64,000 nt of DNA from Maritimibacter dapengensis (GTDB taxonomy: Bacteria; Pseudomonadota; Alphaproteobacteria; Rhodobacterales; Rhodobacteraceae), in the NCBI RefSeq assembly GCF_019218265.1, contig NZ_JAHUZE010000004.1, positions 350,001-414,000 on the forward strand, given 5' to 3'. Below are positions 1 through 21,141 of this stretch, in pieces. The notes under the pieces are model-generated. The model did not search any database, was not told the DNA's origin, and worked only from the letters and a program-made list of their open reading frames with translations. Within the stretch, counting starts at the first letter, position 1; every line of letters starts with the position of its first letter. The position numbers and the translations under genes are program-made.

Positions 1-441
1 AAAGCTGCGGGCGTTGGTCGCGCTACGCTTTATCGCAATTTCGCCAGCCGTGAGGAGTTGGGTCTCGCCGTATTCGAACGCAACGTCGGGCGGCTCGAAG
101 CATTGGCTGGCGAGGCGCCCCAATCTGGCGAGGGATTTCACCTGATCTTGTCGGCCCTGTTCGATGACATGGCAGCGCACGCGGCGCTCGGTCCTGCGCT
201 CCAGGGTTGCGAAGACGACGGGTGTTTGCAGGATCTCCATGATCGAGTGATTGCGGTTCTGGATCGATTCCGAGTGGCCGGAATCCGTGATGGCTCGCTC
301 CGCGAAGACCTGACGGAAAAAGACCTTGGTTTGCTGCTTAACACGCTCGGTGGCGGTTTGGGGCGCGGCGAAAGCACCCCGCGCGACGCGGATGCGAAAC
401 GGATCATGGATCTCCTGTTCGCGGGTTTGCAGCAAACCTAA
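1..441 (+). CDS. TetR/AcrR-family transcriptional regulator, C-terminal part (5' end outside window)
   Basis: The reading frame is open from base 1, so the true start lies outside the window. The first visible residues (AAGVGRATLYRNFASREEL) are the recognition helix and following turn of a TetR helix-turn-helix. The remaining roughly 125 residues are an all-helical C-terminal domain of the type that binds a small ligand and dimerises. The family usually represses neighbouring genes until an effector binds. It points towards, and overlaps by 4 bp, the convergent flavin monooxygenase gene, so it may control something upstream that cannot be seen. The ligand cannot be inferred. Confidence 0.85.
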   Translation, partial: KAAGVGRATLYRNFASREELGLAVFERNVGRLEALAGEAPQSGEGFHLILSALFDDMAAHAALGPALQGCEDDGCLQDLHDRVIAVLDRFRVAGIRDGSLREDLTEKDLGLLLNTLGGGLGRGESTPRDADAKRIMDLLFAGLQQT

Positions 442-1574
442 TAAGGTTGCGCGATCGCACCAAGAGACTGGCCCATGAGTGGCCCAATCTTGTCCATACC
501 CGCACCTTCCTGTTCCAAGCGTCCGAGTTCTAACGAGTTGCCAACGACCATCTTGCCGCGCGGCAGGCGACGCGCCATGAACGCGCTCATCGCTTCGTCC
601 CAGTTATCGGCGCGGTCGAGCTCTTCAACCAGCACGATCGCATCCTCGACCGCCATGCCGGCACCAGAAGCGAGGTGCGGAGTCGTTGCGTGGGCCGCAT
701 CGCCGATCAGCAAGACCCGTCCGACGTGCCAAGGTCCGTCAATCAATACGGATTCGAGCGGTCGGGCGAGAATTGGCGTTGCCTCGTCCATTGCATCTCT
801 GATCTCGGCTAGTTCGCCGCCGAAAGGCGCGAGCAGGGCCTTCAGGCGGGGAAGAAGTTCTTCGTTTTTGTAGAACGGCTTGTCCTTCGCGTTCTCCAAG
901 AGAAACATGTACATGCGGTCTTTGGCATAGGGTGTGAAACCGACTTTGACCGGACCCAAGAACATCTTCGCGGTCGTCCAGTGGGGAGGGAGCTCCATCT
1001 GTGCACGCCAGCAGACTTGCCCAGTGTAGCTTGGCTTGGGCGCGTCAGGCATGACGAGGTCCCGTACTTTCGAAAACAGCCCGTCGGCGCCGATGACCAG
1101 ATCATACGTACCGGTGCTTCCATCGGTAAATGTAACGTGGACGCCTGCCTCGGTCTGATCCAGTTCAGTTACCGAAATGCCGGTGTTCATCGAGACCCCA
1201 TTATCCCGCATTCTTTGGACCATCATATCGTGCAGAACCGGGCGCATGACGCCTCCTTCACCTGGGACGTCCGGCGAAAAAAGGCGTGGTGTCTGGTGCT
1301 CCTGCACCACATTGCCCATAGGGTCGCACATGATGAGGCCGTCATGAAGGTGGCCTTTGTTGATGAGGTCCTCGGCAAAGCCGAGATCGCAAAGCGCGCG
1401 TGCGGTCAGGGACGACAGAGTGACCCCCGTGCCTGCAGCCCCCCAGTTTTCCTCAATGTCAATCAGGTCCACTTTCACGCCACGTTCCGCCAGACGGATC
1501 GCAGCGGCGGGACCACCGACGCCACCGCCCACGACCAGAACGTTTTGAACGTGGTTTGTCAGATTACCTCCCAT
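438..1574 (-). CDS. FAD-dependent aromatic-ring monooxygenase (salicylate/6-hydroxynicotinate hydroxylase-like)
   Basis: A 378-residue class A flavoprotein monooxygenase, which uses NAD(P)H and O2 to hydroxylate an aromatic ring. An N-terminal Rossmann motif GGGVGG (about residues 16-21) binds FAD. The middle motif IGADGLFSKVR is the DG fingerprint, and GDAAHATTPHLASG near residue 290 is the second FAD-binding motif. I chose the ATG at 1574 because GGGAGG lies five bases before it; an in-frame ATG at 1592 lacks a good site. It lies about 100 bp downstream of the LysR gene on the same strand, so the two may be cotranscribed. Substrate unknown; the neighbours suggest it prepares a ring for extradiol cleavage. 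Confidence 0.87.
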   Translation of the reverse strand: MGGNLTNHVQNVLVVGGGVGGPAAAIRLAERGVKVDLIDIEENWGAAGTGVTLSSLTARALCDLGFAEDLINKGHLHDGLIMCDPMGNVVQEHQTPRLFSPDVPGEGGVMRPVLHDMMVQRMRDNGVSMNTGISVTELDQTEAGVHVTFTDGSTGTYDLVIGADGLFSKVRDLVMPDAPKPSYTGQVCWRAQMELPPHWTTAKMFLGPVKVGFTPYAKDRMYMFLLENAKDKPFYKNEELLPRLKALLAPFGGELAEIRDAMDEATPILARPLESVLIDGPWHVGRVLLIGDAAHATTPHLASGAGMAVEDAIVLVEELDRADNWDEAMSAFMARRLPRGKMVVGNSLELGRLEQEGAGMDKIGPLMGQSLGAIAQPY

Positions 1575-1675
1575 GCCGTCCTCCCTTGGCATTTCTCTTC
1601 CGCAGCACCCTAGAGAAGCGCCTGACCTCGGTGAAATAGAATGATTTAATGATTTGTATCGACCTGACCGATGGG

Positions 1676-2581
1676 TCAGCTATTCCGCGCCGCCGTCATT
1701 ATTTTTTCCCGAACCCATGCCAGACACTCGTCGCTGTCAGAATACGTATGCCATTGGATCGCCTCGACGAGTTCAGGGATGTCGATCGGGCAGGGTATGA
1801 TCCGAAGTGGCATCTGCGCGGCGAATATTTCTGCCATCGACCGATGCATCAGGGCGAGGTACTCGGTGCCCTCGATCAAAAAGGGTAAGGCAGAGAAACT
1901 ACCAGCGATGACCGCTAACTTGCGTTCATTGGCGGAGCGATTCTTGATGAACCAGGCCTCATAAGACGGGGTATGGGTTTCGAACATGACAGTGGCGTGC
2001 TGTGCGGCAAAAAATTCCGCTTCGGTAATCGTGGTGCCGTGCGTCGTGTTGCCCTCCCATGCAACTACCACATAGCCGTCTGAAAACACTCGCTCGGACG
2101 GATGGTCCGGCGACACGTAAAGCTCTGGCATAACCAGCAATTCGACTTCACCGCGTTCGATTTTCTCGTGCGGCTTATGCGCGGGCTGCTGGATGTCGAT
2201 CACAAGACCCGGCGCTTCGCGACCGATGTTGCGCACGGCGCTTCGCAGGCAAGAGATCGTGATAAAGTCCGACGCGATGATGCGGATGGTTCGCTGCACG
2301 GTTGCGGGGTCAAATCCGGGCGCTTGAATGATCGTGCCGTCGATCTGAACCAGCGCTGCCCGCACTTTGCCCGCCAGCGCCGTGGCCCTCGGTGTCAGAA
2401 CCATTTTGCGTCCGACCTGGACCAGCAGCTCGTCGTCAAAATAGTCCCGCAGCCGGGCGAGCGCACCAGAAGTCGCTGACTGGCTCAGGAACAGTTTTTC
2501 CGCAGCGCGTGAGACGTTCTTTTCAGTTAAGAGAATGTCGAGCGCGACGAGCAAATTGAGATCCAGCCCTTTGAAACGCAT
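1676..2581 (-). CDS. LysR-family transcriptional regulator, NodD/NahR-like
   Basis: A 301-residue LysR-type regulator. The N-terminal opening (RFKGLDLNLLVALD, then SRAAEKLFLSQSATSGALARL) is the winged helix-turn-helix of the NodD/NahR/LinR branch, whose members respond to aromatic or flavonoid inducers. The C-terminal 200 residues form the periplasmic-binding-like effector domain. GGAGG precedes the ATG. It is divergent from the SDR gene at 2675 with only 93 bp between the starts, the classical arrangement for a LysR protein controlling the opposite gene and itself. Direct repeats in that gap are candidate binding sites. It is the most likely regulator of the catabolic cluster. Confidence 0.9.
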   Translation of the reverse strand: MRFKGLDLNLLVALDILLTEKNVSRAAEKLFLSQSATSGALARLRDYFDDELLVQVGRKMVLTPRATALAGKVRAALVQIDGTIIQAPGFDPATVQRTIRIIASDFITISCLRSAVRNIGREAPGLVIDIQQPAHKPHEKIERGEVELLVMPELYVSPDHPSERVFSDGYVVVAWEGNTTHGTTITEAEFFAAQHATVMFETHTPSYEAWFIKNRSANERKLAVIAGSFSALPFLIEGTEYLALMHRSMAEIFAAQMPLRIIPCPIDIPELVEAIQWHTYSDSDECLAWVREKIMTAARNS

Positions 2582-2591
2582 GTTGCCTCCT

Positions 2592-2621
2592 ATTTGTCTA
2601 CCAGATCGAATCCATTTGTCT
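2592..2621. promoter_or_regulatory. Candidate LysR operator: direct repeat in divergent promoter
   Basis: The octamer ATTTGTCT occurs at 2592-2599 and again at 2614-2621, a 22-bp period equal to two turns of DNA. Both copies lie in the 93-bp gap between the divergent LysR and SDR starts. A related TTTGTC occurs at 5574-5579 in the other divergent promoter of the cluster, and ATTTGTATCGAC near 1652 upstream of the monooxygenase. Binding by the LysR protein is inference. Confidence 0.4.
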
Positions 2622-2674
2622 TATCGACTTCATAGATAGTTTTTATTGCGGCAGAAAGGGGTGGGGAGGATCAA

Positions 2675-3439
2675 ATGACACCGATGGAAATCTTCGACCT
2701 GTCCGGCAAACGCGCACTCGTCACCGGAGGTGCTACGGGCATTGGGCGTGAAATTGCGCGAACGTTTACGGACGCGGGGGCCGAAGTTGTGATTGCGGGG
2801 AACGTGGAGAGCGATCTGGCCGAAACCGCATCTGAAATCGGGTGCCACGCGATCCCGGCTTTACTTGGAACACATGAGGCGGCGGACGAACTGTTCCGGG
2901 CAACAATCGACGAAATGGGCGGCGTCGATATTCTTGTCTCGAACGCAGGGGTTGAAGGCGGCACGACTGGGGTCGTGGGGCTGGACGAAGCAGAATACAT
3001 GCGAACATTCGACGTGAACCTGCACGCTGCAACTTGGCTTTCTTCAGCAGTGATACCCGAAATGTCACGAAGTGGCGGCGGGTCGATCATCCTCATGTCG
3101 TCACTATCGGCGCTGCGCGGAAACAAGGCGATCGCGACCTACTCCATGACCAAGGCCGCGCTCGCCCAACTTGCGCGAAATATCGCCGTGGCGCACGGGC
3201 CCGAGAACATCCGGGCGAATGCCATCGCGCCCGGGCTCATCAAGACACCCTTCTCCGAAGGCCTGATCGCGGATGAGGCATTCATGAAGCGAAGATTGCA
3301 GGCCACGCCTCTGCGACGCTTCGGCGAAGTCTCCGAGATCGCCGCGACCGCGCTTTGGCTCGCGAGTCCGGGAGGTGCGTTTGTCACTGGACAGACGATC
3401 GTCGTCGACGGAGGCACGCTGGTTCACGATGGGTCCTGA
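2675..3439 (+). CDS. SDR-family NAD(P)-dependent oxidoreductase
   Basis: A 254-residue classical short-chain dehydrogenase. The cofactor motif TGGATGIG lies at residues 17-24, NAG at 90-92, the catalytic serine at 142/143, and the YxxxK pair at Tyr156 and Lys160. The late PGLIKTPF and the C-terminal IVVDGG are also typical. A strong GGGGAGG site precedes the ATG. It is transcribed away from the LysR gene and ends 9 bp before the convergent second SDR. It probably oxidises or reduces an alcohol/ketone intermediate, or a cis-dihydrodiol, in the aromatic pathway; the substrate cannot be assigned. Confidence 0.88.
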   Translation: MTPMEIFDLSGKRALVTGGATGIGREIARTFTDAGAEVVIAGNVESDLAETASEIGCHAIPALLGTHEAADELFRATIDEMGGVDILVSNAGVEGGTTGVVGLDEAEYMRTFDVNLHAATWLSSAVIPEMSRSGGGSIILMSSLSALRGNKAIATYSMTKAALAQLARNIAVAHGPENIRANAIAPGLIKTPFSEGLIADEAFMKRRLQATPLRRFGEVSEIAATALWLASPGGAFVTGQTIVVDGGTLVHDGS

Positions 3440-3448
3440 TCTCGCTTC

Positions 3449-4177
3449 TCACCAAGCGGTCGCGCCACCGTCGATGCGGAAATCCGCACCGGTCACATAG
3501 CCCGCTTCGTCCGATCCGAGATAAACGGCGAGATGCGCTATGTCTTCCGCCGTTCCCAACCGCCCGACCATCAGCTTGGCTCGAACGTTCTTCATGAGCG
3601 GCGTGTCGAGATGCTGACTGGTCTCCTCGGTAATCGTGAAGCCGGGTGCGATCGAATTCGCTCTGATGCCAAGGGGACCGCCTTCCATCGCCATCTGCCG
3701 GGTCATTGCTAGTACTGCGCCTTTGCCAGCTGTATGCGCGATCGCCGGCAACCCATCGAGCGCGACATGGGCGTTGGCTGACGAGAAATTCACGATCGAA
3801 GCGGCGCCCGACGCCTCAAGTAATGGCCACATTGCCCGAGTGACAAGGAACACGCTGTCGATCTCACCTTTCGTTGTCGTATGAAAGTCCGCAAGGTTCA
3901 TGTCTGCAATGGGGGCAAAACGCACGATAGCGGCGGCATTGACCAGAATGTCCGCACCGCCCCATGCGGCACGCGCGGCCTGAACCAGATCATCGGCCCC
4001 TGTCTCGGACGTCAGATCGGCTGCCAATCTGCGCGGTGTCGAGAGGGTCTTCAATCCGCCGGGGTCGATGTCGCAGGCTAGAACCTCAGCCCCTTCTGCA
4101 ACGTATCGCTCGGCAATCGCGCGTCCTATCCCACGTCCGGCGCCTGTGACGACTGCTCGTTTGCCAGCAAGTCTCAT
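3449..4177 (-). CDS. SDR-family protein with His in place of the catalytic Tyr
   Basis: A 242-residue short-chain dehydrogenase fold with cofactor motif TGAGRGIG (residues 11-18), NAA at 80-82, an FSS serine near residue 132 and a C-terminal FRIDGG. Where classical members have YxxxK this protein reads HTAGK, so His148 replaces the catalytic tyrosine while Lys152 is kept. I confirmed this on the nucleotide sequence, where the codon is CAT. Its ATG overlaps the Rieske stop codon (ATGA), so it is translationally coupled as the third gene of the dioxygenase-Rieske-SDR operon. It may use altered chemistry or be a non-oxidoreductase; a sequencing error is unlikely but possible. Confidence 0.85.
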   Translation of the reverse strand: MRLAGKRAVVTGAGRGIGRAIAERYVAEGAEVLACDIDPGGLKTLSTPRRLAADLTSETGADDLVQAARAAWGGADILVNAAAIVRFAPIADMNLADFHTTTKGEIDSVFLVTRAMWPLLEASGAASIVNFSSANAHVALDGLPAIAHTAGKGAVLAMTRQMAMEGGPLGIRANSIAPGFTITEETSQHLDTPLMKNVRAKLMVGRLGTAEDIAHLAVYLGSDEAGYVTGADFRIDGGATAW

Positions 4178-4590
4178 GGATGGTGCCTGCCGGGGCGCGG
4201 ACGGAGGCCCGGACTATAAGGCTCCTCAAGAAACACCTGACCGTCAAGGATGGTGAGTGGAACGGGCGTCAAGGATTGACCGAGGCATGGACCAAGTACG
4301 CATTGACCCGAGGCAATATCGAACAAGGCACCATGTGCGCCACAGACGATCCGGCTGCGGTCACCGTTCAGAAACTCATTCTTTTTCCAGGCCATGCGCG
4401 CGTTTTCATAGTGAGGGCAATTGTTGCGCCAGCCATAGAGCACATCGCCTTGCCTCACGATGAACATCGTGTCGCGCCCCTCGCTTAGAGGATCAAAACC
4501 CCGGGAGTGCCCGTCCTCCAGATCGTCGAACCGACAAAGCGGGCTTTCGACGAACTGGGGTTGTCGGGTCTCAGTCTTTTGGCCCTGCAC
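4174..4590 (-). CDS. Stand-alone Rieske [2Fe-2S] protein
   Basis: A protein of about 138 residues dominated by one Rieske domain. The two cluster-binding motifs are CPH (Cys58, His60) and CGAH (Cys83, His86), the expected CxH...CxxH pattern. I propose a GTG start at 4590, overlapping the last 20 bases of the dioxygenase gene; upstream in-frame codons would run deep into that gene. It ends in an ATGA overlap with the following SDR. Small Rieske ferredoxins pass electrons to ring hydroxylases, but no Rieske oxygenase large subunit is present here, so its partner is unknown. A regulatory or redox-maintenance role for the extradiol enzyme is also possible. Confidence 0.82.
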   Translation of the reverse strand: MQGQKTETRQPQFVESPLCRFDDLEDGHSRGFDPLSEGRDTMFIVRQGDVLYGWRNNCPHYENARMAWKKNEFLNGDRSRIVCGAHGALFDIASGQCVLGPCLGQSLTPVPLTILDGQVFLEEPYSPGLRPRPGRHHP

Positions 4591-5509
4591 CGGGGAACCA
4601 CTTTTCGACATTTTCGAAGAGAAACAATTGCGAGGCCTCTGCGGAAACGTCGATTTCCCTGGGGGCCCAATCGTCGTCGTGAATGTCCATGTCGGCATCG
4701 TACTCGAAATGGGTCATGAGCGGGCAATTGAAATACCAGAACCAGTTGGACCCAAACTTGTGCCGACCCGGGCCCCAGAAGCTTTCGTATCCTTTTTGAA
4801 CCAGCCGTGAGCCTGCGAGCATCAGGTCCGTTGGCCCTTGCATATGAAATGCGAGGTGCTCGAGGCCTTGCATGTAGGGCGGGGTCGCCAGCATGAACAG
4901 AGTATGGTGGTCTTTGCAGGCCTGCGGCCGCAGAAATGGCCCAACGTTGGTGAAGCGATCCGTGACAACGAATTTCAATCGCTCCACATAGAAGGCTTCG
5001 TGCTTCGTCATGTCTGGCGTGAAATAGACGATGTGGCTTAGGGTGCGCGGCTTCGCCGGGGCATCCTGAAGCGCGCCGATCTTGTTCACGCCGCGCAAGG
5101 GCGCAGCACCGGGGCTGTTGATCAGTTCCGCCTCCAGATCCAGGTCGATCCGCCGTGTCACTTGGAATTTGAGTGCCATGTCAACGTCGTCGACAAGAGC
5201 GATTGCGCCGTTTCCGTCTCGAGTCACTTCCCGGTCGGTAGACAACTCAGCTTCAATTTCGTCCAGCACGCTTGCATCTTCGACGCCATAGATCGTCTGA
5301 CGTAGCGTCGATCCCGATGGCAGTGGCTTGGGGAGTGAAGAATCATCGCGCGCGCGCACAGTTATCGCGGTGTTGTCGAGCGCGACGAAAGTACCGCCCT
5401 TGCCATCCTCCCAGTTTTCTTCATCCAGCCCGTAGTCGACTAGGAACGTGCGACAAGCATTCAAATCGTCGACGCCGAAGACCAGTTCGTCAGGTCCGAT
5501 GATGCGCAT
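4571..5509 (-). CDS. Two-domain VOC-fold extradiol-type dioxygenase
   Basis: A 312-residue protein with two vicinal-oxygen-chelate domains, the size and layout of type I extradiol (meta-cleavage) dioxygenases such as 2,3-dihydroxybiphenyl 1,2-dioxygenase. The C-terminal domain supplies plausible metal ligands: His159 (TLSHIVYF), His218 or His222 (EHLAFH) and Glu269 (HFEYD), matching the 2-His-1-carboxylate pattern. I moved the start to the ATG at 5509 because GGAGGATACC sits immediately before it. It opens an operon with the Rieske and SDR genes and is divergent from the hydrolase at 5685. It probably cleaves a dihydroxylated ring; the substrate is unknown. Confidence 0.83.
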   Translation of the reverse strand: MRIIGPDELVFGVDDLNACRTFLVDYGLDEENWEDGKGGTFVALDNTAITVRARDDSSLPKPLPSGSTLRQTIYGVEDASVLDEIEAELSTDREVTRDGNGAIALVDDVDMALKFQVTRRIDLDLEAELINSPGAAPLRGVNKIGALQDAPAKPRTLSHIVYFTPDMTKHEAFYVERLKFVVTDRFTNVGPFLRPQACKDHHTLFMLATPPYMQGLEHLAFHMQGPTDLMLAGSRLVQKGYESFWGPGRHKFGSNWFWYFNCPLMTHFEYDADMDIHDDDWAPREIDVSAEASQLFLFENVEKWFPGAGPKD

Positions 5510-5684
5510 GGGTATCCTCCCAATTTCATAAGCTCCACGCAATCTAGGCTGGACGAATGTATTGGAGAAATTGTTTGTCATCATCCACGCTATCCGCGAA
5601 ATCAATAGTTAAGTCCGTGACATTCAATTTCCCATCGCACAGTTGCGCGCGTAGCGTCCGCTGGAAACTTTAGGAGGAACGCGC
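5510..5684. promoter_or_regulatory. Divergent promoter region between dioxygenase and hydrolase
   Basis: This 175-bp gap separates two divergent catabolic units, so it must hold promoters for both. It is visibly more AT-rich than the genes around it. A TTTGTC element at 5574-5579 recalls the octamer repeated in the LysR-SDR gap. Good ribosome sites flank both ends (GGAGG before 5509 and AGGAGG before 5685). I could not identify convincing -35/-10 pairs. Confidence 0.45.
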
Positions 5685-6845
5685 ATGGCCTTGTTTGAAT
5701 ATTTCCCCAACTACGTCTGGAACCTGTCCCTTTCGATTGCGATGCAGTCGGGAGCTGAGCTGGGAGAAATCATCGACATGTCCAAGCCGCTGCTTGAGAA
5801 GGCGCAGGCGGGTGAAGATGCAGGAACCGCCGAGTTTCTGGCTGAATGGATGAAAAAGGCGAATGATCTGATTGCGCAGGCTGCGGACGACGAAGAAAAG
5901 AAAAGGCTCTTTTCGGCGGCTGATAAGCTGCGCCGCGCTTCGCTATATCTGCTGACGGCGGAACGGATGCAGGGACACGGACACCCGGGGCGTAAAGAAA
6001 CCTTTTCTAAGGCACTGGAATGCTTCGATAAATATGTACGCTACAACCGTGAGAACTGTGAGCGGGTGGAAATTCCCTATGGTGAAAAGGTGATCCCCGC
6101 CTATTTCACGAAAGGCGCTGGGGTCGAGGGAGAAGGGCCCTGTGTGGTGTTTCTAAACGGGCTCGATTCCAACAAGGAACTGCTTTATTGGACCTGGCTC
6201 CCTCACGCACTCGCAAAGCGTGGTATCTCGACACTTTGTGTCGATCAGCCGGGCACCGGTGAATCGATCCGGCTTCAGGGATTGCACGCCACGCATGACA
6301 GCGAACGCTGGGGCACGCCGGTGTATGAATACGCCGCTGCTCGCCCGGACGTCGATGCGAACCGCGTCGGCTGCTCAGGTATTTCGCTCGGCGGATACTA
6401 CGTTCCACGCGTCGTGGCGAACGAATCCCGATACGCCTCCGGGGCGGTTTGGGGTGCCAATCACAACTGGGCCGAGGTCCAGCGCAAAAGGATGAAACGC
6501 GAAGGCGAGAACCCGGTGCCGCATTACTGGAAACACGTCTGGTGGGTGTTTGACGCAGCCGACCAAGAGGATTTCCTCGAGAAATCGGCGGGCATGACGC
6601 TGGATGGGCAAATGGAAAAGATCAAGGTCCCGTTCCTCATCACCCATGGTGAAAAAGATCGGCAGATTGGCTTGGAGTACGCACATCAGAGTTTTGAGCA
6701 ACTCGTCAACAGCCCCAAACGTGAGCTGAAGGTATTCACCGATTACGAAGGTGGCGTTGAGCATGTCGGGGCGGACAACATGTCGTTCGGTCGCTCGCTT
6801 ATTGCGGACTGGTTCGCGGAAACCCTGGGCGGGCATACCGCCTGA
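5685..6845 (+). CDS. Alpha/beta hydrolase, 2,6-dihydroxypseudooxynicotine-hydrolase-like
   Basis: A 386-residue alpha/beta hydrolase with a long helical N-terminal extension (about residues 1-125) before the core. This layout is known from the C-C hydrolase of nicotine degradation (2,6-dihydroxypseudooxynicotine hydrolase) and the FrsA-like group. The nucleophile elbow is GISLGG with Ser234, and the likely partners are Asp325 (HGEKD) and His360 (GVEHVG). AGGAGG precedes the ATG. It is divergent from the ring-cleavage operon. The context suggests hydrolysis of a carbon-carbon bond in a diketone or ring-opened product; the resemblance comes from recognised sequence features, not a search. Confidence 0.8.
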   Translation: MALFEYFPNYVWNLSLSIAMQSGAELGEIIDMSKPLLEKAQAGEDAGTAEFLAEWMKKANDLIAQAADDEEKKRLFSAADKLRRASLYLLTAERMQGHGHPGRKETFSKALECFDKYVRYNRENCERVEIPYGEKVIPAYFTKGAGVEGEGPCVVFLNGLDSNKELLYWTWLPHALAKRGISTLCVDQPGTGESIRLQGLHATHDSERWGTPVYEYAAARPDVDANRVGCSGISLGGYYVPRVVANESRYASGAVWGANHNWAEVQRKRMKREGENPVPHYWKHVWWVFDAADQEDFLEKSAGMTLDGQMEKIKVPFLITHGEKDRQIGLEYAHQSFEQLVNSPKRELKVFTDYEGGVEHVGADNMSFGRSLIADWFAETLGGHTA

Positions 6846-7041: not shown

Positions 7042-8160
7042 ATGAAAAAGGCCTTGATCACAGGCATCACAGGACAAGACGGATCGTATCTCACCGAGTT
7101 TCTGCTCGAGAAAGGATACGAAGTACATGGGATCAAGCGTCGGGCCTCTCAGTTCAATACCCAGCGCGTCGACCATATTTACGAAGATCCCCATGAGGGC
7201 GATGTTCGGATGATCCTTCACTACGGAGACCTTACGGACACCTCGAATCTGACGCGTCTTCTGGCGGAAATCGGACCGGATGAGGTCTATAATCTCGGCG
7301 CGCAAAGCCATGTCGCCGTAAGCTTCGAAAGCCCTGAATACACAGCGGACGTAGACGCGATCGGCACCTTGCGTCTGCTCGAGGCAATCCGCTTTCTCGG
7401 CCGCGAGAAAGAGACGCGCTTCTATCAGGCTTCGACGTCGGAACTCTTCGGCAAAGTTCAAGAGATCCCGCAGCGTGAAACGACGCCTTTCTATCCACGC
7501 TCACCTTACGCCGTGGCCAAACTCTACGCCTATTGGATTACGGTGAATTACCGCGAAAGCTATGGGATGTATGCCTGCAACGGCATTCTATTCAATCACG
7601 AAAGCCCCCGGCGCGGTGAGACCTTCGTGACGCGCAAGATCACGCGCGGCTTGGCGAATATCGCCATGGGGCTCGAGGATTGCCTTTACATGGGCAACAT
7701 CGACTCGCTTCGCGACTGGGGTCACGCCAAGGATTACGTGCGGATGCAGTGGATGATGCTGCAGCAGGACGCGCCCGAAGATTTCGTGATCGCGACCGGC
7801 AAACAATATTCGGTGCGTGAGTTCATCGAGTGGTCGGCGCGGGAATTGTCGATCGAGCTGGACTTTTCCGGGGAAGGCACCGACGAGATCGCGACAGTAA
7901 AATCAGTGGACAACAACGTTGCTCCGGCGGTGAAGCCAGGCCAGGTCATCATGCGGATCGACCCGCGTTACTTCCGCCCCGCCGAGGTCGAAACGCTGTT
8001 GGGTGATCCGGCCTATGCAAAACAGAAACTGGGCTGGGAGCCGGAGATTACCGCGCAGGAAATGTGCGAGGAAATGGTCGCGGAGGATCTCAAACACGCT
8101 CGCCGTGTTGCATTGCTGAAAGAGCACGGGCTGGATCTCCCGGTGTCGCTGGAGGGCTGA
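7042..8160 (+). CDS. gmd: GDP-mannose 4,6-dehydratase
   Basis: A 372-residue extended SDR enzyme that converts GDP-D-mannose to GDP-4-keto-6-deoxy-D-mannose in the cytoplasm. The start [11 protein letters not shown] is the characteristic cofactor loop, followed by the family signature HGIKRRAS, and the catalytic YAVAK motif lies near residue 157. The [15 protein letters not shown] segment is diagnostic for this enzyme. Ribosome site GAGAGGAG precedes the ATG. The fcl gene follows after 2 bp, so the two steps of GDP-L-fucose synthesis are coupled. No glycosyltransferase lies beside the pair, so the fucose-containing glycan is made by genes elsewhere. Confidence 0.97.
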
Positions 8161-8162
8161 TT

Positions 8163-9101
8163 ATGGCTTGGGATATCTCCGGCAAACGTGTCTGGGTCGC
8201 CGGGCATCGCGGCATGGTCGGCGGAGCCGTCGTGCGCCGATTGGAGGCCGAAGACTGCGAGGTCGTGACCGCCGGGCGAGACGTCGTCGACTTGACCAGT
8301 CAGGCCGACGTGCGTGACTGGATGGCTGAGGCGCGCCCCGATGCCGTTGTCATGGCGGCGGCCAAGGTCGGCGGCATTTTGGCCAACGACACGCACCCGG
8401 TGGATTTCCTGCTGCAGAATCTTCAAATCGAAACGAACATCGTCGAAGCCGCACACGCTAACGATGTCGAGCGGTTCCTGTTTCTCGGGTCCTCTTGCAT
8501 CTACCCTAAAATGGCGCCACAGCCGATGGCCGAAGAAAGCTTGTTGACAGGACCACTTGAGCCTACAAACGAGTGGTACGCCATCGCCAAGATTGCGGGC
8601 ATCAAGCTCATGCAGGCCTATCGCAAGCAACATGGTCGTGACTGGATTTCGGCCATGCCGACGAACCTCTATGGCCCGGGCGACAACTATGATCTCGAAA
8701 GTTCGCATGTGCTGCCGGCACTCCTTCGCAAGTTTCACGAGGCCAAGCAGAGCGGCGCGGAAACTGTCGAAGTTTGGGGGTCAGGCGAACCTTTGCGCGA
8801 ATTCCTGCACTGCGACGATCTTGCGGACGCGTTGGTTTTTCTGCTCAAGGAATACTCGGGCTACGACCATGTGAATGTCGGTTCGGGCGTCGAAGTTTCG
8901 ATCCGCGATTTGGCCGAAACGATCGCTCGGGTGGTGGGGTATGAGGCCGAGTTGGTATTCGACGCGACCAAACCCGACGGCACACCGCGCAAGCTCATGG
9001 ATAGCACCCGGTTGCACGAACTGGGCTGGAACAACGTTCGTTCGCTCGAAGAGGGTGTGAAGGACGCTTATCAACATTTCCTCGCAGCTGAAGCGCGTTG
9101 A
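8163..9101 (+). CDS. fcl: GDP-L-fucose synthase (epimerase/reductase)
   Basis: A 312-residue extended SDR enzyme that epimerises and reduces the product of Gmd to GDP-L-fucose using NADPH. GHRGMVGGAV is the cofactor motif. The segment LGSSCIYPK and the YAIAK catalytic motif follow, then SSHVLPALLRKFHEA and EFLHCDDLADA, all typical of the family. I chose the ATG at 8163, two bases after the gmd stop; the longer frame starting at 8064 would lie inside gmd. GDP-fucose feeds exopolysaccharide, O-antigen or capsule. Last gene of the two-gene unit. Confidence 0.96.
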   Translation: MAWDISGKRVWVAGHRGMVGGAVVRRLEAEDCEVVTAGRDVVDLTSQADVRDWMAEARPDAVVMAAAKVGGILANDTHPVDFLLQNLQIETNIVEAAHANDVERFLFLGSSCIYPKMAPQPMAEESLLTGPLEPTNEWYAIAKIAGIKLMQAYRKQHGRDWISAMPTNLYGPGDNYDLESSHVLPALLRKFHEAKQSGAETVEVWGSGEPLREFLHCDDLADALVFLLKEYSGYDHVNVGSGVEVSIRDLAETIARVVGYEAELVFDATKPDGTPRKLMDSTRLHELGWNNVRSLEEGVKDAYQHFLAAEAR

Positions 9102-9200: not shown

Positions 9201-9400
9201 CGATGCTGGGAGGCAGCGTTCGGTTGCCGACGTCGCGGGGAGGCCTATCCTCAAGACAAGACATCATCGCGCGCCCCGGAGATCCGGGCGGATAGGGGCC
9301 AGTCGCGGTGTCTCGGAGAGTGCGTTCGTGCTCCCTGGGCCGATCCGCCCCTCCGGTCGGCCGAGTAACTCCAATCCAAGGGTCGTATGACCCTGAGCAG

Positions 9401-10522
9401 ATGAAAGACAGCGAACAGAAGCCGTCGTCATATCCATTTGCCCGAGTTGCCGTAATCGGCGCCGGGTCGTGGGGCACCGCCCTGGCCGCCGTTCTGGCTC
9501 GGTCCGGTCGCGACGTCACCCTTTGGGCGCGTCGCCGTGACGTTGCCGAGGCTATCAACGCAACAGGCGAAAATGCGCAATATCTGCCGGAGGTCCCTCT
9601 GCCGCCCGGCATTCGGGCGACATCGGTGATCGGCGAAGCGCTGACCGGTGCTGAAGCGGTAATCCTCGTCACGCCGTCCAAAACCCTGCGCGATATTTGC
9701 GACGCCGTTGCCCCGCATATTCCGAGTGGCATCCCGATCGCACTCGCCTGCAAAGGGATCGAGCGCGGTTCCGGGCTTTTGTTGTCCGAGGTCGTGTCCG
9801 AGGCACTTCCGGGTCATCCGGTCGGCGCGGTCTCGGGCCCGACCTTCGCACGCGAAACCGCGCTCGATCACCCAACCGCCGCCACGGTCGCATTCCCGTT
9901 CAGCTATGCCGACCGGCTCCTACCGAACGAAAGCCCGGCCGCCCGGCTCGCCATGTCGTTCTCGGGCAGCGGGTTTCGCCCCTACGTGTCGGACGACCTT
10001 GTGGGTGTCGAAGTGGGTGGCGCCGTCAAGAACGTGATTGCCATCGCCTGCGGGATCATGACGGGCGCAGGCTTCGCCGAGAACACCCGCGCCGCACTCA
10101 TCACCCGCGGGATCAATGAGATGAAAGCTATGGCCGAGGCACTGGGCGGGCGACGCGAGACGGTGACGGGGCTTTCGGGTGCGGGCGATTTGACGCTAAC
10201 ATGTTCCTCGACGACGTCGCGCAACATGTCGCTGGGGTGCCAGTTGGGCGAGGGTCGCGCGCGCGCCGAATGCTTCGACGGGCGCCCGGTCGTGGTCGAG
10301 GGCGAGGTGAACGCGGTCTCTGTCGTCGATCTTGCGCGGCGGATCCGCGTGCCGATGCCGATCTGCGAAACGGTTAACGCGGTCCTGCATGAGGGCGCGG
10401 ATATTGGGAAGAGTTTCTCGGCCCTTTGGACGCGTCCGCTCGAAGGTGAGCCGCGCACGCTCGACCTTTTTCTCGACCACCCTGAACCTACAGCGATACT
10501 CGGATTTGGAGATCGACATTGA
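9401..10522 (+). CDS. gpsA: Glycerol-3-phosphate dehydrogenase [NAD(P)+], osmolyte-operon copy
   Basis: A 373-residue GpsA-family enzyme that reduces dihydroxyacetone phosphate to sn-glycerol 3-phosphate. IGAGSWGTALA is the N-terminal nucleotide-binding motif. ACKGIE, the GPTFA segment, GGAVKNVIAIACG and the GAGDLTLTCSS motif are all present. It is longer than the usual 320-340 residues because of an N-terminal extension and an extra loop after the GPTFA segment (AFPFSYADRLLPNES). It is followed by a HAD phosphatase and a GgpS-type synthase, with a TTGA overlap to the phosphatase. The context says it supplies glycerol 3-phosphate for glucosylglycerol, so it may be a dedicated paralogue rather than the sole lipid-synthesis copy. 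Confidence 0.92.
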   Translation: MKDSEQKPSSYPFARVAVIGAGSWGTALAAVLARSGRDVTLWARRRDVAEAINATGENAQYLPEVPLPPGIRATSVIGEALTGAEAVILVTPSKTLRDICDAVAPHIPSGIPIALACKGIERGSGLLLSEVVSEALPGHPVGAVSGPTFARETALDHPTAATVAFPFSYADRLLPNESPAARLAMSFSGSGFRPYVSDDLVGVEVGGAVKNVIAIACGIMTGAGFAENTRAALITRGINEMKAMAEALGGRRETVTGLSGAGDLTLTCSSTTSRNMSLGCQLGEGRARAECFDGRPVVVEGEVNAVSVVDLARRIRVPMPICETVNAVLHEGADIGKSFSALWTRPLEGEPRTLDLFLDHPEPTAILGFGDRH

Positions 10523-11301
10523 ACGAACTGACAACGCTCGAGAAACCACTCTCGGCGCGAGAATTCACTTTGGCCACCGACCTCGACGGCACGTTCTTGG
10601 GCGGCAGCGATGCGGCGCGGGGGCAGCTGTATGACTGGATTGAAGCGAACCGTGATAGCGTGGGGCTGATCTTCGTCACGGGTCGCGACCCAGACTTCAT
10701 CGCTGGCATGTGTGTTGAGCGAGACCTACCTTGGCCAGACTACGTCGTAGGCGACGTGGGCACGACAATCGCGGAAGTGCACCGCCCAGAGATCACCCCG
10801 ATCAATGTACTGGAACATGACATTTCTCATCGCTGGCAGGACGCCGGCGAGCGCGTACGCGCAGCTTTAGACGGGCAGCCGGGTCTTACGCTTCAGCCGA
10901 CGGATTTTCGATATCGGGTCAGTTATGACCTCGACCCCGCGCAGTTCGATGACAGCGCAAAAGCAAAGGTCGAGGCATTGGATCTGGATTGGCTCATCTC
11001 CGACAATCGTTATTTCGACGTGTTGCCCAAGGGCGTGTCCAAAGGTCCGTCGATTCGTCGCCTCGTTGAGCATCTCGAGATGGACCTGTCCCGCGTGCTT
11101 GTCGCGGGCGATACGCTCAATGACCTGTCGATGCTCGCCTGCGGCCTTCCGGCGGTCGCGGTCGGAAACTCCGAACCCGATCTTCTGCGCCAGGTACGCG
11201 ACCTCGATCATCTCTATCTCGCCGAAGCCCATGGTGCGGGCGGCATAATCGAAGCCATCGCAGCGCTCGGCCTTCACCCGAACCATCCCAAAGGAGCTTG
11301 A
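10519..11301 (+). CDS. HAD-family phosphatase, probable glucosylglycerol-phosphate phosphatase
   Basis: A 260-residue HAD hydrolase of the Cof/sucrose-phosphatase type. Motif I is DLDGT (residues 18-22), motif II ends in TGR, the motif III lysine lies in KGVSKGPS, and motif IV is AGDTLNDLSML. The start is a TTG at 10519, overlapping the gpsA stop, with TTTGGAG seven bases before it. The gene sits between gpsA and ggpS and ends five bases before ggpS starts. It is therefore expected to remove phosphate from glucosylglycerol phosphate. In some pseudomonads a HAD domain is fused to the synthase; here the two are separate proteins. Confidence 0.85.
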   Translation: MNELTTLEKPLSAREFTLATDLDGTFLGGSDAARGQLYDWIEANRDSVGLIFVTGRDPDFIAGMCVERDLPWPDYVVGDVGTTIAEVHRPEITPINVLEHDISHRWQDAGERVRAALDGQPGLTLQPTDFRYRVSYDLDPAQFDDSAKAKVEALDLDWLISDNRYFDVLPKGVSKGPSIRRLVEHLEMDLSRVLVAGDTLNDLSMLACGLPAVAVGNSEPDLLRQVRDLDHLYLAEAHGAGGIIEAIAALGLHPNHPKGA

Positions 11302-11306
11302 CCCAA

Positions 11307-12812
11307 ATGTCTTCGAACATCGTGATCGTCTATCACCGCCAACCCTATACGGAAGTGAAAGTCGACGGGAAAATCGAGTTCCACGAGAACAAGAGCCCCA
11401 ATGGGATCGTGCCGACGCTGAAGTCGTTTTTCGGACGTTTCGACAGTGGGGCCTGGGTGGCCTGGAAAGAGGCCGAGGATCCGATGAACCCCGGCTTTGA
11501 GCGCCGTGTCGAGATTGAGGATGCGCATGGCGCATATACCGTCAGCCGCCTTCCGCTGACCCGTGAGCAGATAAAGAGCTTCTACGAAGTATCTTCGAAA
11601 GAGGCGTTCTGGCCGATCCTTCACGGCTTCAAGGAACGCTACAACTACGACCCGGTCGATTGGCCGACCTTCCGAGAGGTAAACTGGGCCTTTGCCGAGG
11701 CAGCCGCGCATGAAGCCGCTGACGGGGCTGTGGTCTGGGTTCATGACTACAACCTCTGGCTCGTGCCGGGGTATCTTCGCCGACTGCGGCCCGACCTGAA
11801 GATCAGCTTCTTCCACCACACGCCGTTCCCCTCGGCGGACATGTTCAACGTTCTGCCCTGGCGCAAGGAGATCATGGAGAGTCTTCTCGCCTGCGACGTC
11901 GTCGGTTTCCACATACCGCGTTACGTCGCGAATTTCGTTTCCGCCGCACGTTCGATGCTGGATGTGGATGTGACGAAAAGGCAAAAGGTGGACGATGACT
12001 TCGCCGCCGAATTCTCGGCCCTGACCGAAGTCAGCGTGCCCTCAGAGCTGCAATTTGGCGATCAAACAATCCGTGTGCAGGCGAGCCCGGTGGGGATCGA
12101 CTTCGGGTATATTTCCGACGTCGCGGGACGGTCCGAAACCGATGAACAGGTGACCGGGATCCGTGCCGATCTGGGGGACCAGAAGCTTCTACTTTCGGTC
12201 GGACGCACCGATTACACGAAAGGCGGCATCGACCAACTTGAAAGCTTCAAAAGACTGCTCGAGGCCAAGCCCGAGTTGCGCGGCAAAGTTCGCCTGATGC
12301 ACGTCTCCGTGCCAGCGAACAAGAACATGACGGTCTATGAGAACATCCAGGCCGATCTGGAACAGATGGCCGGGCAGATCAACGGACAATTTGGCTCGCT
12401 CGACTGGCAACCCATCGCGCTCATCTCGCGCGCGATCCCATTTACCGAACTTGTTGCATACTACCGTGCCGCCGACGTGGCGTGGATCACGCCGTTAGCG
12501 GACGGCATGAACCTTGTCGCCAAGGAATTTTGTGCCGCGCGGAGCGACGGTGACGGGGTGCTTGTGTTGTCGGAATTCGCGGGTGCGGCGGTTGAGATGG
12601 GTTCGGCACTGCTCACCAATCCGTTCTCGAACCGCTCGATGGACAGCGCGATCGAACAGGCTTTGTCAATGGAAGAACCCGAGCGGCGAGACCGTATGGC
12701 GGCGCTGCGCCGGGTGATTCAGACATATGACATCCAATTCTGGGCTGAGCATCAGATGCAGGCGCTGGGCGGCGAAGAGGCACGGTTGGCGTCGCTGCCT
12801 GCGGCGGAGTGA
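11307..12812 (+). CDS. ggpS: Glucosylglycerol-phosphate synthase (GT20 family)
   Basis: A 501-residue glycosyltransferase of the trehalose-6-phosphate synthase family (GT20). It joins ADP-glucose and glycerol 3-phosphate to glucosylglycerol phosphate. The opening IVIVYHRQPYTE followed by NKSPNGIVPTLKSFF is typical of GgpS rather than OtsA. VWVHDYNLWLVPGYLR, FFHHTPFPS and SVGRTDYTKGG are the conserved donor and acceptor segments, and DGMNLVAKEF closes the active site. The start is the ATG at 11307, with AAGGAG ten bases before it. Operon with gpsA and the HAD phosphatase. Expected product: the compatible solute glucosylglycerol, used against salt stress. Confidence 0.9.
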   Translation: MSSNIVIVYHRQPYTEVKVDGKIEFHENKSPNGIVPTLKSFFGRFDSGAWVAWKEAEDPMNPGFERRVEIEDAHGAYTVSRLPLTREQIKSFYEVSSKEAFWPILHGFKERYNYDPVDWPTFREVNWAFAEAAAHEAADGAVVWVHDYNLWLVPGYLRRLRPDLKISFFHHTPFPSADMFNVLPWRKEIMESLLACDVVGFHIPRYVANFVSAARSMLDVDVTKRQKVDDDFAAEFSALTEVSVPSELQFGDQTIRVQASPVGIDFGYISDVAGRSETDEQVTGIRADLGDQKLLLSVGRTDYTKGGIDQLESFKRLLEAKPELRGKVRLMHVSVPANKNMTVYENIQADLEQMAGQINGQFGSLDWQPIALISRAIPFTELVAYYRAADVAWITPLADGMNLVAKEFCAARSDGDGVLVLSEFAGAAVEMGSALLTNPFSNRSMDSAIEQALSMEEPERRDRMAALRRVIQTYDIQFWAEHQMQALGGEEARLASLPAAE

Positions 12813-13535: not shown

Positions 13536-14738
13536 ATGAAACTCATGAAACGCGCCATGACCGCGTTTTCTGTCGCCGTTGCGATGGCCGGTCCGGCGGT
13601 CGCACAGGATGGCGACCCGGTCAAGATCGCACTCATCCACGGTATGTCCGGCAGCCCGCTGGAAGCCTTTTCCAAACAGACCCACACCGGCTTCGAGCTT
13701 GGCCTCGAATATGCCACGGGCGGCACGATGGAAGTAAACGGCCACCCGATTGAAGTGATTTACAAGGATACGCAGTTCAAACCAGATGTGGCGCGCGCCG
13801 TTCTTGCCGAAGCCTATGGCGACGACGAAGTGCTTTTGGCCGTGGGTGCTACCTCGTCCGGTGTGACCACCGGTATGCTGCCCATCGCAGAAGAATACGA
13901 GCGTATCTTGCTGGTCGAACCAGCCGTTGCAGACAGCCTGACGGGCCCGGAATCGAACCGCTACGTGTTCAAGACTTCGCGCAACTCGTCAATGGACATG
14001 CAGGCCCAGGCGCTTGCGCTGAAGCCTGATGAGAACCTCTATGTTGCCACGTTGGCCGAAGACTACGCCTTCGGTCGTGACGGTATCGCAGCGTTCAAGT
14101 CGGCACTCGAAGGGACGGGGGCGACTGTCGTCTCCGAGGAATACGTGGCGCAAGGCACGGCGGACTACACCGCTGTCGGCGAACGCCTGTTCAATGCACT
14201 CAAGGATCAGGATGGGCGCAAGGTCATTCTGATCTATGTTGCGGGGTCCGGCGACGCGCCCGGCAAGCTGCAAGCGATGGATCCGTCTCGTTTCGACATC
14301 GAACTGTCTTTCGGTGGCAATATCCTGCCCGCAATGGCCGGTTACAAGCGGTTCCCGGGCATGGAAGGCGCGGTGTATTATTACTACGAAGCCTTCGAGA
14401 ACGAGATCAACGACTGGCTCGTGGAAGAGCACATGGCGCGCTTCGACGGGCCGCCTGACTTCTTCACTGCGGGTGGCATGTCGGCGGCATTGGCCGTGGT
14501 CAAGGCGATCGAAACCGCCGAAACGCTCGACACCGAAGGGCTGATCGCTGCTATGGAGGGCATGTCCTGGGATACGCCCAAGGGTGAAATGACCTTCCGC
14601 CCCGAAGATCACCAAGCGTTACAGAGCATGCTCCACTTCAAGATCCGTGTGGATGATGATGTTGAATGGGCGATTCCCGAAAAGGTGGAGATCATTACCC
14701 CCGACATGATGGACATCCCCGTCGGTCGCGAAAACTGA
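13536..14738 (+). CDS. Branched-chain-type ABC transporter, periplasmic binding protein
   Basis: A 400-residue LivJ-like solute-binding protein. The N-terminal signal peptide (KRAMTAF then a hydrophobic stretch ending AVA-QD, about residue 23) directs it to the periplasm. The mature part starts VKIALIHGMSGSPLEA and has the two-lobed Peripla_BP_6 fold (AVGATSSGVTTGMLPIAEEY; FKTSRNSSMDMQ). GGGAGG precedes the ATG. It heads a complete operon of binding protein, two ATPases and two permeases, ending with a hydrolase. Many members of this family in alphaproteobacteria carry aromatic acids or amides rather than leucine; the ligand is not evident. Confidence 0.9.
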   Translation: MKLMKRAMTAFSVAVAMAGPAVAQDGDPVKIALIHGMSGSPLEAFSKQTHTGFELGLEYATGGTMEVNGHPIEVIYKDTQFKPDVARAVLAEAYGDDEVLLAVGATSSGVTTGMLPIAEEYERILLVEPAVADSLTGPESNRYVFKTSRNSSMDMQAQALALKPDENLYVATLAEDYAFGRDGIAAFKSALEGTGATVVSEEYVAQGTADYTAVGERLFNALKDQDGRKVILIYVAGSGDAPGKLQAMDPSRFDIELSFGGNILPAMAGYKRFPGMEGAVYYYYEAFENEINDWLVEEHMARFDGPPDFFTAGGMSAALAVVKAIETAETLDTEGLIAAMEGMSWDTPKGEMTFRPEDHQALQSMLHFKIRVDDDVEWAIPEKVEIITPDMMDIPVGREN

Positions 14739-14804
14739 TGTCTCCAGCTCCGGCCGGTGCCAGCGAACGTGCTGGCCGGGGCGACTGAACAGAACCTCAA
14801 TCAT

Positions 14805-15569
14805 ATGATACACCCATCGCTTTCCACCCGTGATCTCACGATCCGGTTCGGCGGGCATACGGCCGTGAACGCCGTGACCTGCGACTTTCGCCCTGGCGAA
14901 CTGACCGTCATCGTGGGCCCGAACGGTGCCGGCAAGACCACCTATTTCAACATGATCTCGGGTCAGCTTACACCGACATCCGGGAGCGTGGAGAAAGACG
15001 GGGTCGACCTCACACGAATGTCGGCAAGCCAGATCGCCCGACACGGCGTTGGGCGCGCGTTCCAGCTCACCAACCTTTTTCCGCAGCTCTCGGTCCTCGA
15101 GAACATACGGCTCGCCGTTCAGGCGCAGGCGGGCGACGGGCGTCGGTTCTTCACACCGGTCGCGAAGCTGAGCGAACTGACGGCACGGGCGGAACGCTAT
15201 CTCGAAGCGACCAAGCTTAGCGACAAGGCCGAATTGCCTGCTGCCGCATTGGCCCACGGCGATCAGCGCAAGCTTGAAGTGGCGCTGCTCATGGCGATGG
15301 AGCCGGATATCTATATGTTCGACGAACCCACCGCGGGTATGAGCCTTGACCACGCGCCGGACGTGCTCGATCTCATCGCCGAGATCAAACATGACCACTC
15401 AAAGACGGTGCTTTTGGTCGAGCACAAGATGGACGTGGTGCGCGCCCTCGCGGATCGGATCATCGTGCTTCACAACGGCGAGCTTATTGCTGACGGCGAT
15501 CCGGGTGAGGTTATGTCGAGCCAAGTCGTAAAAGATGTGTATCTAGGCAATGCTGGAGAGATGGCATGA
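14805..15569 (+). CDS. Branched-chain-type ABC transporter ATPase (LivG-like)
   Basis: A 254-residue ATP-binding subunit. Walker A is GPNGAGKTTYFN, Walker B is MFDEPTAGMS, and the signature loop is LAHGDQRKLEV, a variant of LSGGQ seen in LivG and UrtD proteins. I chose the ATG at 14805; a GTG at 14757 would add 16 residues outside the conserved domain. Neither has a strong ribosome site. Its end overlaps the next ATPase by 4 bp (ATGA). It works as a heterodimer with the following LivF-like subunit on the inner face of the membrane. Confidence 0.92.
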   Translation: MIHPSLSTRDLTIRFGGHTAVNAVTCDFRPGELTVIVGPNGAGKTTYFNMISGQLTPTSGSVEKDGVDLTRMSASQIARHGVGRAFQLTNLFPQLSVLENIRLAVQAQAGDGRRFFTPVAKLSELTARAERYLEATKLSDKAELPAAALAHGDQRKLEVALLMAMEPDIYMFDEPTAGMSLDHAPDVLDLIAEIKHDHSKTVLLVEHKMDVVRALADRIIVLHNGELIADGDPGEVMSSQVVKDVYLGNAGEMA

Positions 15570-17268: not shown

Positions 17269-17278
17269 GGAGCGCGAT

Positions 17279-19170: not shown

Positions 19171-19188
19171 GCGGGCGCTCGCGATCGT

Positions 19189-20184: not shown

Positions 20185-20205
20185 ACGTGTCTCCCGTCGC
20201 CCTCG

Positions 20206-21021: not shown

Positions 21022-21024
21022 ATT

Positions 21025-21090
21025 TAATCAATACCCCTCCGTACAAGTTTTTTCAAATAATCAATGGTTAACGGTCGTGAACACAGTGTT
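21025..21090. promoter_or_regulatory. Repeats between LytTR regulator and GMC oxidoreductase
   Basis: The octamer TAATCAAT occurs at 21025-21032 and 21058-21065, exactly 33 bp apart (three helical turns). A perfect 11-bp palindrome AACACAGTGTT follows at 21080-21090. All lie in the 120-bp gap between the divergent starts at 21021 and 21142. LytTR proteins bind paired direct repeats, so autoregulation is a reasonable inference, though their usual period is nearer two turns. Confidence 0.4.
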
Positions 21091-21141
21091 GCCTTGGGGC
21101 CGTTTTCGGCCGATGTATCGGCAATAACCGGAGGGGACGGA

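Follow-up and report, generated by a model that had tools for sequence, protein, structure and literature searches.

An fde/ifc-like gene cluster in Maritimibacter

Two bacterial pathways for the breakdown of flavonoids, fde of Herbaspirillum seropedicae and ifc of Variovorax, are the closest described systems to a gene cluster of Maritimibacter dapengensis located at positions 438-6845 of a stretch of 64,000 nucleotides (contig NZ_JAHUZE010000004.1, positions 350,001-414,000; hereafter the window). In H. seropedicae, naringenin is reported to be 8-hydroxylated by FdeE, a FAD monooxygenase that forms a complex with FdeD, its Rieske carrier (PMC8552027), and cleavage of the A ring is ascribed to FdeC (PMC8552027, PMC10755750). 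FdeC and FdeE are given as Hsero_1005 and Hsero_1007 (PMC10755750); one locus tag lies between them, and co-linear clusters of other bacteria have a Rieske gene at that place. For ifc, 8-hydroxylation followed by a dioxygenase step was demonstrated, IfcA being 36.3% identical to FdeE and the glyoxalase IfcB 65.8% identical to FdeC (PMC11069340). The ifc cluster is also described as containing two cupins and an alpha/beta hydrolase, which its authors likened to the 2,6-dihydroxypseudooxynicotine (DHPON) hydrolase of the nicotine pathway (PMC11069340). Five ifc loci, the hydrolase and two cupins among them, are reported to resemble fde genes, so the fde set should contain counterparts.

With a probability of roughly 0.75, the window cluster is an A-ring meta-cleavage module of the fde/ifc type for a flavonoid-like substrate. 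All seven genes of the cluster were present, each in the family named in a first-pass annotation of the sequence. That annotation had proposed a hydroxylase, a meta-cleavage enzyme and a C-C hydrolase acting on an aromatic compound, which the fde/ifc-type gene set bears out. It had also found no pathway to which the combination could be assigned, and here the outcome was different: the core is that of the naringenin pathway of H. seropedicae and the isoflavone pathway of Variovorax. Five of the seven proteins match look-alike clusters in other bacteria along nearly their full length. Full-length matches to one described pathway, which the annotation had named as evidence against an uncharacterised cluster, were therefore largely found, by way of these look-alike clusters and not of the H. 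seropedicae sequences.

The dioxygenase, the proposed hydroxylase and Rieske carrier, and the hydrolase

The FdeC-like dioxygenase, a two-domain protein of the VOC/Glyoxalase type, is encoded on the minus strand at 4571-5509. Its start was placed at 5509 rather than 5605, because homologues begin at residue 33 of the longer open reading frame and GGGAGG is found just upstream; this yields a protein of 312 aa. By blastp, it is 52-61% identical over ~310 aa to the VOC proteins of nine look-alike clusters. A profile of nine VOC homologues aligned with BphC (1han, E 4.6e-8), placing H159, H218 and E269 on what we take to be the metal ligands and H202, H250 and Y259 on presumed second-sphere residues. 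All six residues were invariant (312-aa numbering) in 63 of 63 family VOC proteins, defined as at least 45% identical and including the window protein, and in 6 of 6 other VOC proteins; the counts exclude VOC proteins below 230 aa, near-identical copies and sequences containing stop codons. H222, in contrast, occurred in 63/63 family members and in none of the six others. Since H218 is present throughout, it is the ligand position and H222 a signature of the family, so that three of the ligands suggested earlier (His159, His218 and Glu269) stand and His222 does not. The AlphaFold model had a pLDDT of 79.8, with two stretches (129-145 and 276-312) below 50, and Foldseek matched it to 3b59 and to numerous catechol and biphenyldiol dioxygenases (best E 5.3e-17, query TM 0.67). 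The catalytic residues are intact and the fold is that of a dioxygenase. By sequence and model, the 2-His-1-carboxylate site together with the extradiol dioxygenase fold identifies the protein as a type I extradiol dioxygenase.

The proposed ring hydroxylase, an FdeE-like group A FAD monooxygenase (FMO), is encoded at 438-1592 on the minus strand. It matches Pfam FAD_binding_3 and NCBIfam NF005313 (426 bits, cut-off 372) and carries the FAD motifs GGGVGG at residue 22 and GDAAH at residue 297. Identities by blastp were 42-48% to the FMOs of five look-alike clusters and 35% to that of Bradyrhizobium. In a tree of 25 rows, the window FMO formed a clade with HTCC2654-A and HKST (support 100/100), separate from an fde-like group of 13 rows (100/99), a Bradyrhizobium/P. 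hospita-1 group (100/99) and a group Rhodobacterales B (100/100). The program warned of long branches, the names fde-like and ifc-like are our own labels, and the outgroup-like Burkholderia anthina FMO at 5903, which has a very long branch, was omitted.

A stand-alone Rieske [2Fe-2S] protein (4174-4590, minus strand; Pfam Rieske) is the candidate FdeD-like electron carrier. Its open reading frame is over-long at the 5′ end; a GTG at 4590, the start inferred here, gives 138 aa with the motif CPH-x22-CGAH. The cluster motif C-x-H...C-x-x-H was kept in 50 of 50 distinct Rieske homologues, and identity to the Rieske proteins of look-alike clusters was 40-56% (blastp). The FdeR-like LysR-type regulator (1676-2581, minus strand; Pfam HTH_1 and LysR_substrate) is 33-50% identical to the LysR proteins of these clusters (blastp).

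The FdeB-like alpha/beta hydrolase (5685-6845, plus strand; FrsA-like, with a helical N-terminus), the proposed C-C bond hydrolase, shows 49-69% full-length identity to the hydrolases of eight look-alike clusters. Residues D325 and H360 of its triad were found in 35/35 homologues and S234 in 34/35; the remaining one, from the Maritimibacter REDSEA metagenome-assembled genome (MAG), has a proline. In this MAG (L021:8746-9909, 16855-17887) the FMO frame is split in addition to the loss of the nucleophile, due to either sequence error or decay. The resemblance to DHPON hydrolase noted in the first-pass annotation could be confirmed by phmmer (2jbw, E 2.5e-10, 42.9 bits), and a Yellowish-green 1-like hydrolase (8qd7) was nearer (E 2.8e-13, 52.6 bits). 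Both are related alpha/beta hydrolases whose alignments extend into the N-terminal part, but they are distant and belong to different pathways.

The gene set recurs in other proteobacteria

A tblastn search of plasmids with the window VOC returned 159 records; among the best 40, 24 were at least 50% identical and 16 at most 36%, and the loci of 13 of these 24 records were examined. Hydrolase, VOC, Rieske and FMO genes follow each other in a row in Azospirillum B510, Diaphorobacter HDW4B and Roseinatronobacter S2, and also in B. anthina SO82, with one EthD gene between hydrolase and VOC. Genes for a FAH-family hydrolase, a cyclase-family hydrolase, a cupin and an epimerase come next in look-alike clusters, in varying subsets. 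The fit is poorer in Pseudomonas CIP-10, where genes for hydrolase, VOC, FAH and cyclase occur without a Rieske or FMO match nearby. The four clusters of Azospirillum, B. anthina, Diaphorobacter and Roseinatronobacter share with the window the core set together with LysR, FAH and cyclase, whereas the gene order of the window is rearranged and its FMO, Rieske, VOC and hydrolase are 42-61% identical to theirs.

Gene linkage was counted within 9 kb of the best VOC in 28 family loci (VOC at least 50% identical; the window and the query source L038 included, some loci non-independent). Parts of islands already counted (L034, L095, L096, L098) were omitted, as were, by length, L097 and the shortest loci (3-6 kb or >15 kb only). 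A LysR gene was found in 26 loci, a Rieske gene in 25, a FMO in 27 and a hydrolase in 24, followed by FAH (20), cyclase (19), epimerase (13), SDR (11) and cupin (8). Two large control loci contained none of these genes in the same 9-kb test except an SDR in one. For loci of 4 kb, a Rieske, FMO or hydrolase neighbour was present in 49 of 50 family loci, several of them duplicates, and in 0 of 14 controls. The neighbourhood comparison proposed in the first-pass annotation thus showed overlapping gene sets near VOC homologues in Alpha-, Beta- and Gammaproteobacteria, which makes chance association very unlikely. Gene linkage, like gene content, is directly established.

Two plasmids showed further arrangements. 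A plasmid of Paraburkholderia hospita typed as conjugative (L046, 1329-3897 and 8652-19160) carries two different, adjoining FMO-VOC-Rieske clusters whose FMOs are 39% identical. On the plasmid of one Roseomonas mucosa strain (L041:10985-13091), the annotation splits the FMO of the fde-like cluster into two parts that flank an IS5-family transposase gene.

The cluster is part of a larger, patchily distributed island

The cluster exceeds its initially assigned limits, as related genes on this contig extend upstream of the window for ~19 kb. Homologues of lower-pathway genes lie 2-20 kb upstream of the window (cyclase 58%, cupin 46%, FAH 54% and epimerase 35% identity), the cyclase-family gene, at 330.8 kb of the contig, being 58% identical to that of B. 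anthina. From this cyclase the island continues with genes for an SDR, a small VOC protein, a cupin, a CrtO-like flavoprotein, a SnoaL protein, a DUF3089 protein and a TetR regulator. A taurine/sulfonate-class ABC importer with a NMT1-type binding protein, a S1 sulfatase, an SDR, a HisD-like dehydrogenase, an epimerase-like gene, a FAH hydrolase, a KstD-like flavoprotein and a second TetR regulator follow. The window cluster comes next and ends at ~356.8 kb of the contig.

The TetR gene next to the window cluster lies mostly outside 438-6845 and is cut by the window edge: its C-terminal part occupies 1-441 on the plus strand, and the whole gene (184 aa) is at L034:14887-15441 in the upstream stretch of the same contig. 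A 53% identical copy is found at the corresponding place in M. alkaliphilus HTCC2654; the match to Pfam TetR_C_43 is weak and under the model cut-off. SDR1 (2675-3439, plus strand) and SDR2 (3449-4177, minus strand) both match Pfam adh_short_C2 and are syntenic at 69-71% and 76-79% in the HKST MAG (L022) and HTCC2654 (L023); a 50% identical SDR1 homologue lies within the cluster of a Beta-MAG (L025). Thus, the gene families of the first-pass annotation stood, while the VOC start, the 5′ end of the Rieske gene, the placement of TetR and the upstream limit had to be revised. The region between the VOC and hydrolase genes (5510-5684) presumably harbours their divergent promoters. Alignment of four Maritimibacter intergenic regions revealed a conserved element at ~5559-5575 (GTATTGGAGAAATTGTT), which by its sequence is a candidate regulator site.

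Among named organisms, the closest VOC loci were those of Maritimibacter sp. REDSEA-S28_B5, Maritimibacter sp. HKST-UBA93 and M. alkaliphilus HTCC2654. Of 60 related genomes, seven belong to the same genus and three of these carry a close VOC copy (at least 64% identity), against one of the 53 others. At E 1e-60, an even sample of the phylum contained 7 carriers in 398 genomes, own genome included. Positives in narrower samples numbered 46/398 (family sample around genome G122) and 2/13 (one genus). The patchy occurrence resembles that of an accessory catabolic island.

HTCC2654 has most of the island genes in corresponding order, sulfatase included (overlapping stretches L023 and L096), with identities of 82% for the sulfatase, 88-90% for the TauB/TauC-like proteins, 83% for the cupin, 89% for SDR3, 73% for the KstD-like protein, 80% for the FMO and 90% for the hydrolase, but only 47% for the CrtO-like protein; HisD, SDR4 and the DUF3089 protein had no match in the HTCC2654 stretches read. 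The HKST MAG (L022, L097) contains the core as well as the HisD, SDR4, cupin, small VOC and CrtO-like genes. An ATPase with 30% identity to TauB takes the place of the importer there, and the adjoining open reading frames resemble, by eye, a binding protein and a permease; the HKST stretches gave no match to the KstD-like and TetR2 genes nor, at E 1e-5, to the sulfatase gene. A second locus of HTCC2654 (L029, G004:C4:3552001-3572000) combines a FdeC-like VOC with LysR and FMO and has no Rieske or hydrolase match in the 20 kb read; a similar layout occurs in another genome (G001, L031).

On the left, an oligopeptide-class ABC importer precedes the cyclase gene (324.8-330.4 kb). It had no match in the HTCC2654 stretch read, which leaves this border of the island uncertain. 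The right border is formed by gmd and fcl (GDP-fucose synthesis; window 7042-9101), which follow the island directly. Further to the right, genes for a glucosylglycerol-phosphate synthase (TIGR02398, 664.6 bits, cut-off 569), a S6PP-type phosphatase and a GpsA-like dehydrogenase (window 9308-12812) are likely to form a glucosylglycerol osmolyte operon. Window positions 13536-22743 encode an ABC importer with a Peripla_BP_6 binding protein, its ATPases and permeases being, by eye, of the branched-chain-amino-acid type; after these come genes for an alpha/beta hydrolase, a luciferase-like monooxygenase and a GMC oxidoreductase.

Proposed pathway and alternative substrates

From the comparison we infer a flavonoid as substrate, an order of reactions, and roles for the SDRs and regulators. 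The FAD monooxygenase and its small Rieske electron partner would hydroxylate the A ring of a 7-hydroxyflavonoid-like phenol beside the OH group to a catechol, the VOC extradiol dioxygenase would open this ring by meta cleavage, and the alpha/beta hydrolase would cut a C-C bond of the diketone-like product. The resulting fragments may be processed by the FAH-family hydrolase, the cyclase-family hydrolase, the cupin, the epimerase-like reductase, the HisD-like dehydrogenase and the SDRs, with LysR and TetR as probable regulators. A candidate for the other ring is a PF00775 intradiol dioxygenase encoded at another place in the genome.

With fde of H. seropedicae SmR1, the window shares the FAD hydroxylase (FdeE), the Rieske carrier (FdeD) and the dioxygenase (FdeC), as well as a LysR-type regulator, which FdeR presumably is. 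It differs in that its genes are spread over several divergent units, in its own FMO clade and in additional genes for SDR1/SDR2, HisD-like and KstD-like proteins, ABC importers and, in two of three Maritimibacter islands, a sulfatase. With ifc of Variovorax V35, it shares the FMO (IfcA), the VOC (IfcB), the DHPON-hydrolase-like hydrolase and cupin(s), but its FMO falls outside the Bradyrhizobium/P. hospita-1 group, which is provisionally labelled ifc-like here. The pathway type is already known; plausibly, the extra island genes and the distinct FMO clade mark a Maritimibacter variant of it.

Several observations weigh against a flavonoid pathway of this type. The window FMO, in its separate clade, is only 41-48% identical to the fde-like group, so its substrate may differ, and its gene is 2.6 kb away from the Rieske gene rather than adjacent. 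Disruption of the ifc hydrolase gene is reported to have left daidzein degradation running (PMC11069340), which makes the hydrolase step uncertain even in ifc. FAH and SDR genes were also matched in 6 and 4, respectively, of the 14 small control loci, and are therefore non-specific neighbours. A FdeF-like MFS gene was unmatched in the genome in a search that lacked a positive control. Finally, the putative orthology to FdeC, FdeE, IfcA and IfcB is drawn from gene content, gene order and look-alike clusters.

The same module and mechanism might act on a marine phenolic other than a flavonoid, for example one built on a hydroxychromone or acylphenol core (an algal polyketide, a phlorotannin-derived or a sulfated aryl compound). 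The separation of the Maritimibacter FMOs from both fde-like and Bradyrhizobium-type enzymes would fit such a substrate, as would the island's own importer and sulfatase and the missing genome match to the MFS gene downstream of the FMO in B. anthina and Diaphorobacter. We consider it rather unlikely, as the VOC (52-61%) and the hydrolase (49-69%) remain similar to their counterparts in clusters of soil, plant and other origin, the cyclase, cupin, FAH and epimerase homologues are kept, and no other substrate is positively indicated. A heteroaromatic pathway of the pyridine or nicotine type, suggested by the relationship of the hydrolase to 2jbw (E 2.5e-10) and of the FMO to 2,6-dihydroxypyridine hydroxylase (2vou, E 1e-14) and 6-hydroxynicotinate 3-monooxygenase, is highly improbable: the hydrolase is nearer to 8qd7 and far nearer to the hydrolases of fde-like clusters, and the best-scoring matches of the FMO are salicylate monooxygenase-type entries. 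To our knowledge, a type I extradiol dioxygenase and a lone Rieske protein are no part of the nicotine route. Least probable of all is the meta-cleavage of steroids or other polycyclic compounds by HsaC/HsaD-like enzymes together with KstD. The KstD-like flavoprotein beside the cluster (L034:13172-14851) does match 3-ketosteroid-delta-1-dehydrogenase models, but with 658.7 bits it remains under the model cut-off of 789, and its gene, kept in HTCC2654, was unmatched in the HKST MAG. HsaC appeared at rank 13 among the fold matches of the VOC model, no better than other extradiol dioxygenases, and neither VOC nor hydrolase hit an HsaC- or HsaD-named NCBIfam family in a library whose content of such models was unchecked.

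The island sulfatase and sulfated flavones

The S1 sulfatase has its C-x-P-x-R motif as CGPSR at residue 53, matches PDB 4upl with 776 bits and shows by eye no obvious signal peptide; a FGE-family protein is present in the genome. It occurs in two of the three Maritimibacter islands of this type, namely those of the window host and HTCC2654 and not that of the HKST MAG, and among loci >12 kb these two (L034 and L096) were the only ones to match the sulfatase query. Paralogous sulfatases exist elsewhere in these genomes, and across 41 genomes searched the copy in the HTCC2654 island (83%) was the closest.

Eelgrass leaves are reported to contain the 7-sulfates of apigenin, luteolin and diosmetin (PMC6389981), and IfcA is described as inactive on 4′,7-dimethoxyisoflavone and isoflavone glycosides (PMC11069340). 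For 7-sulfates, a cytoplasmic sulfatase ahead of the hydroxylase would make chemical sense. We tentatively suggest, as a possibility well below even odds, that in this island the flavonoid A-ring pathway has been adapted in the sea to sulfated flavones, e.g. those of seagrass. The taurine/sulfonate-class ABC transporter would take up the anionic 7-O-sulfate, and removal of the sulfate by the cytoplasmic S1 sulfatase would free the 7-OH needed by the hydroxylase, before the FdeE/D-FdeC-FdeB-like core opens the ring. Searches on the breakdown of flavonoids or sulfated flavonoids by Maritimibacter, Roseobacter and marine bacteria and on flavonoid-catabolism clusters, judged by title and the start of the abstract and covering few subscription papers, gave no description of the island among the matches listed.

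Implications

The puzzling set of a lone Rieske protein, a flavin hydroxylase and an extradiol enzyme is resolved into a known pathway type, now in Maritimibacter. Because most of the island is found in M. alkaliphilus HTCC2654, the question of its substrate is testable. The sulfatase may hint at feeding on sulfated flavonoids or similar marine phenolics. If this is true, these bacteria could feed on the sulfated phenolics with which seagrass defends itself and at the same time render them harmless, and the island would name genes for the marine recycling of these antifouling compounds.

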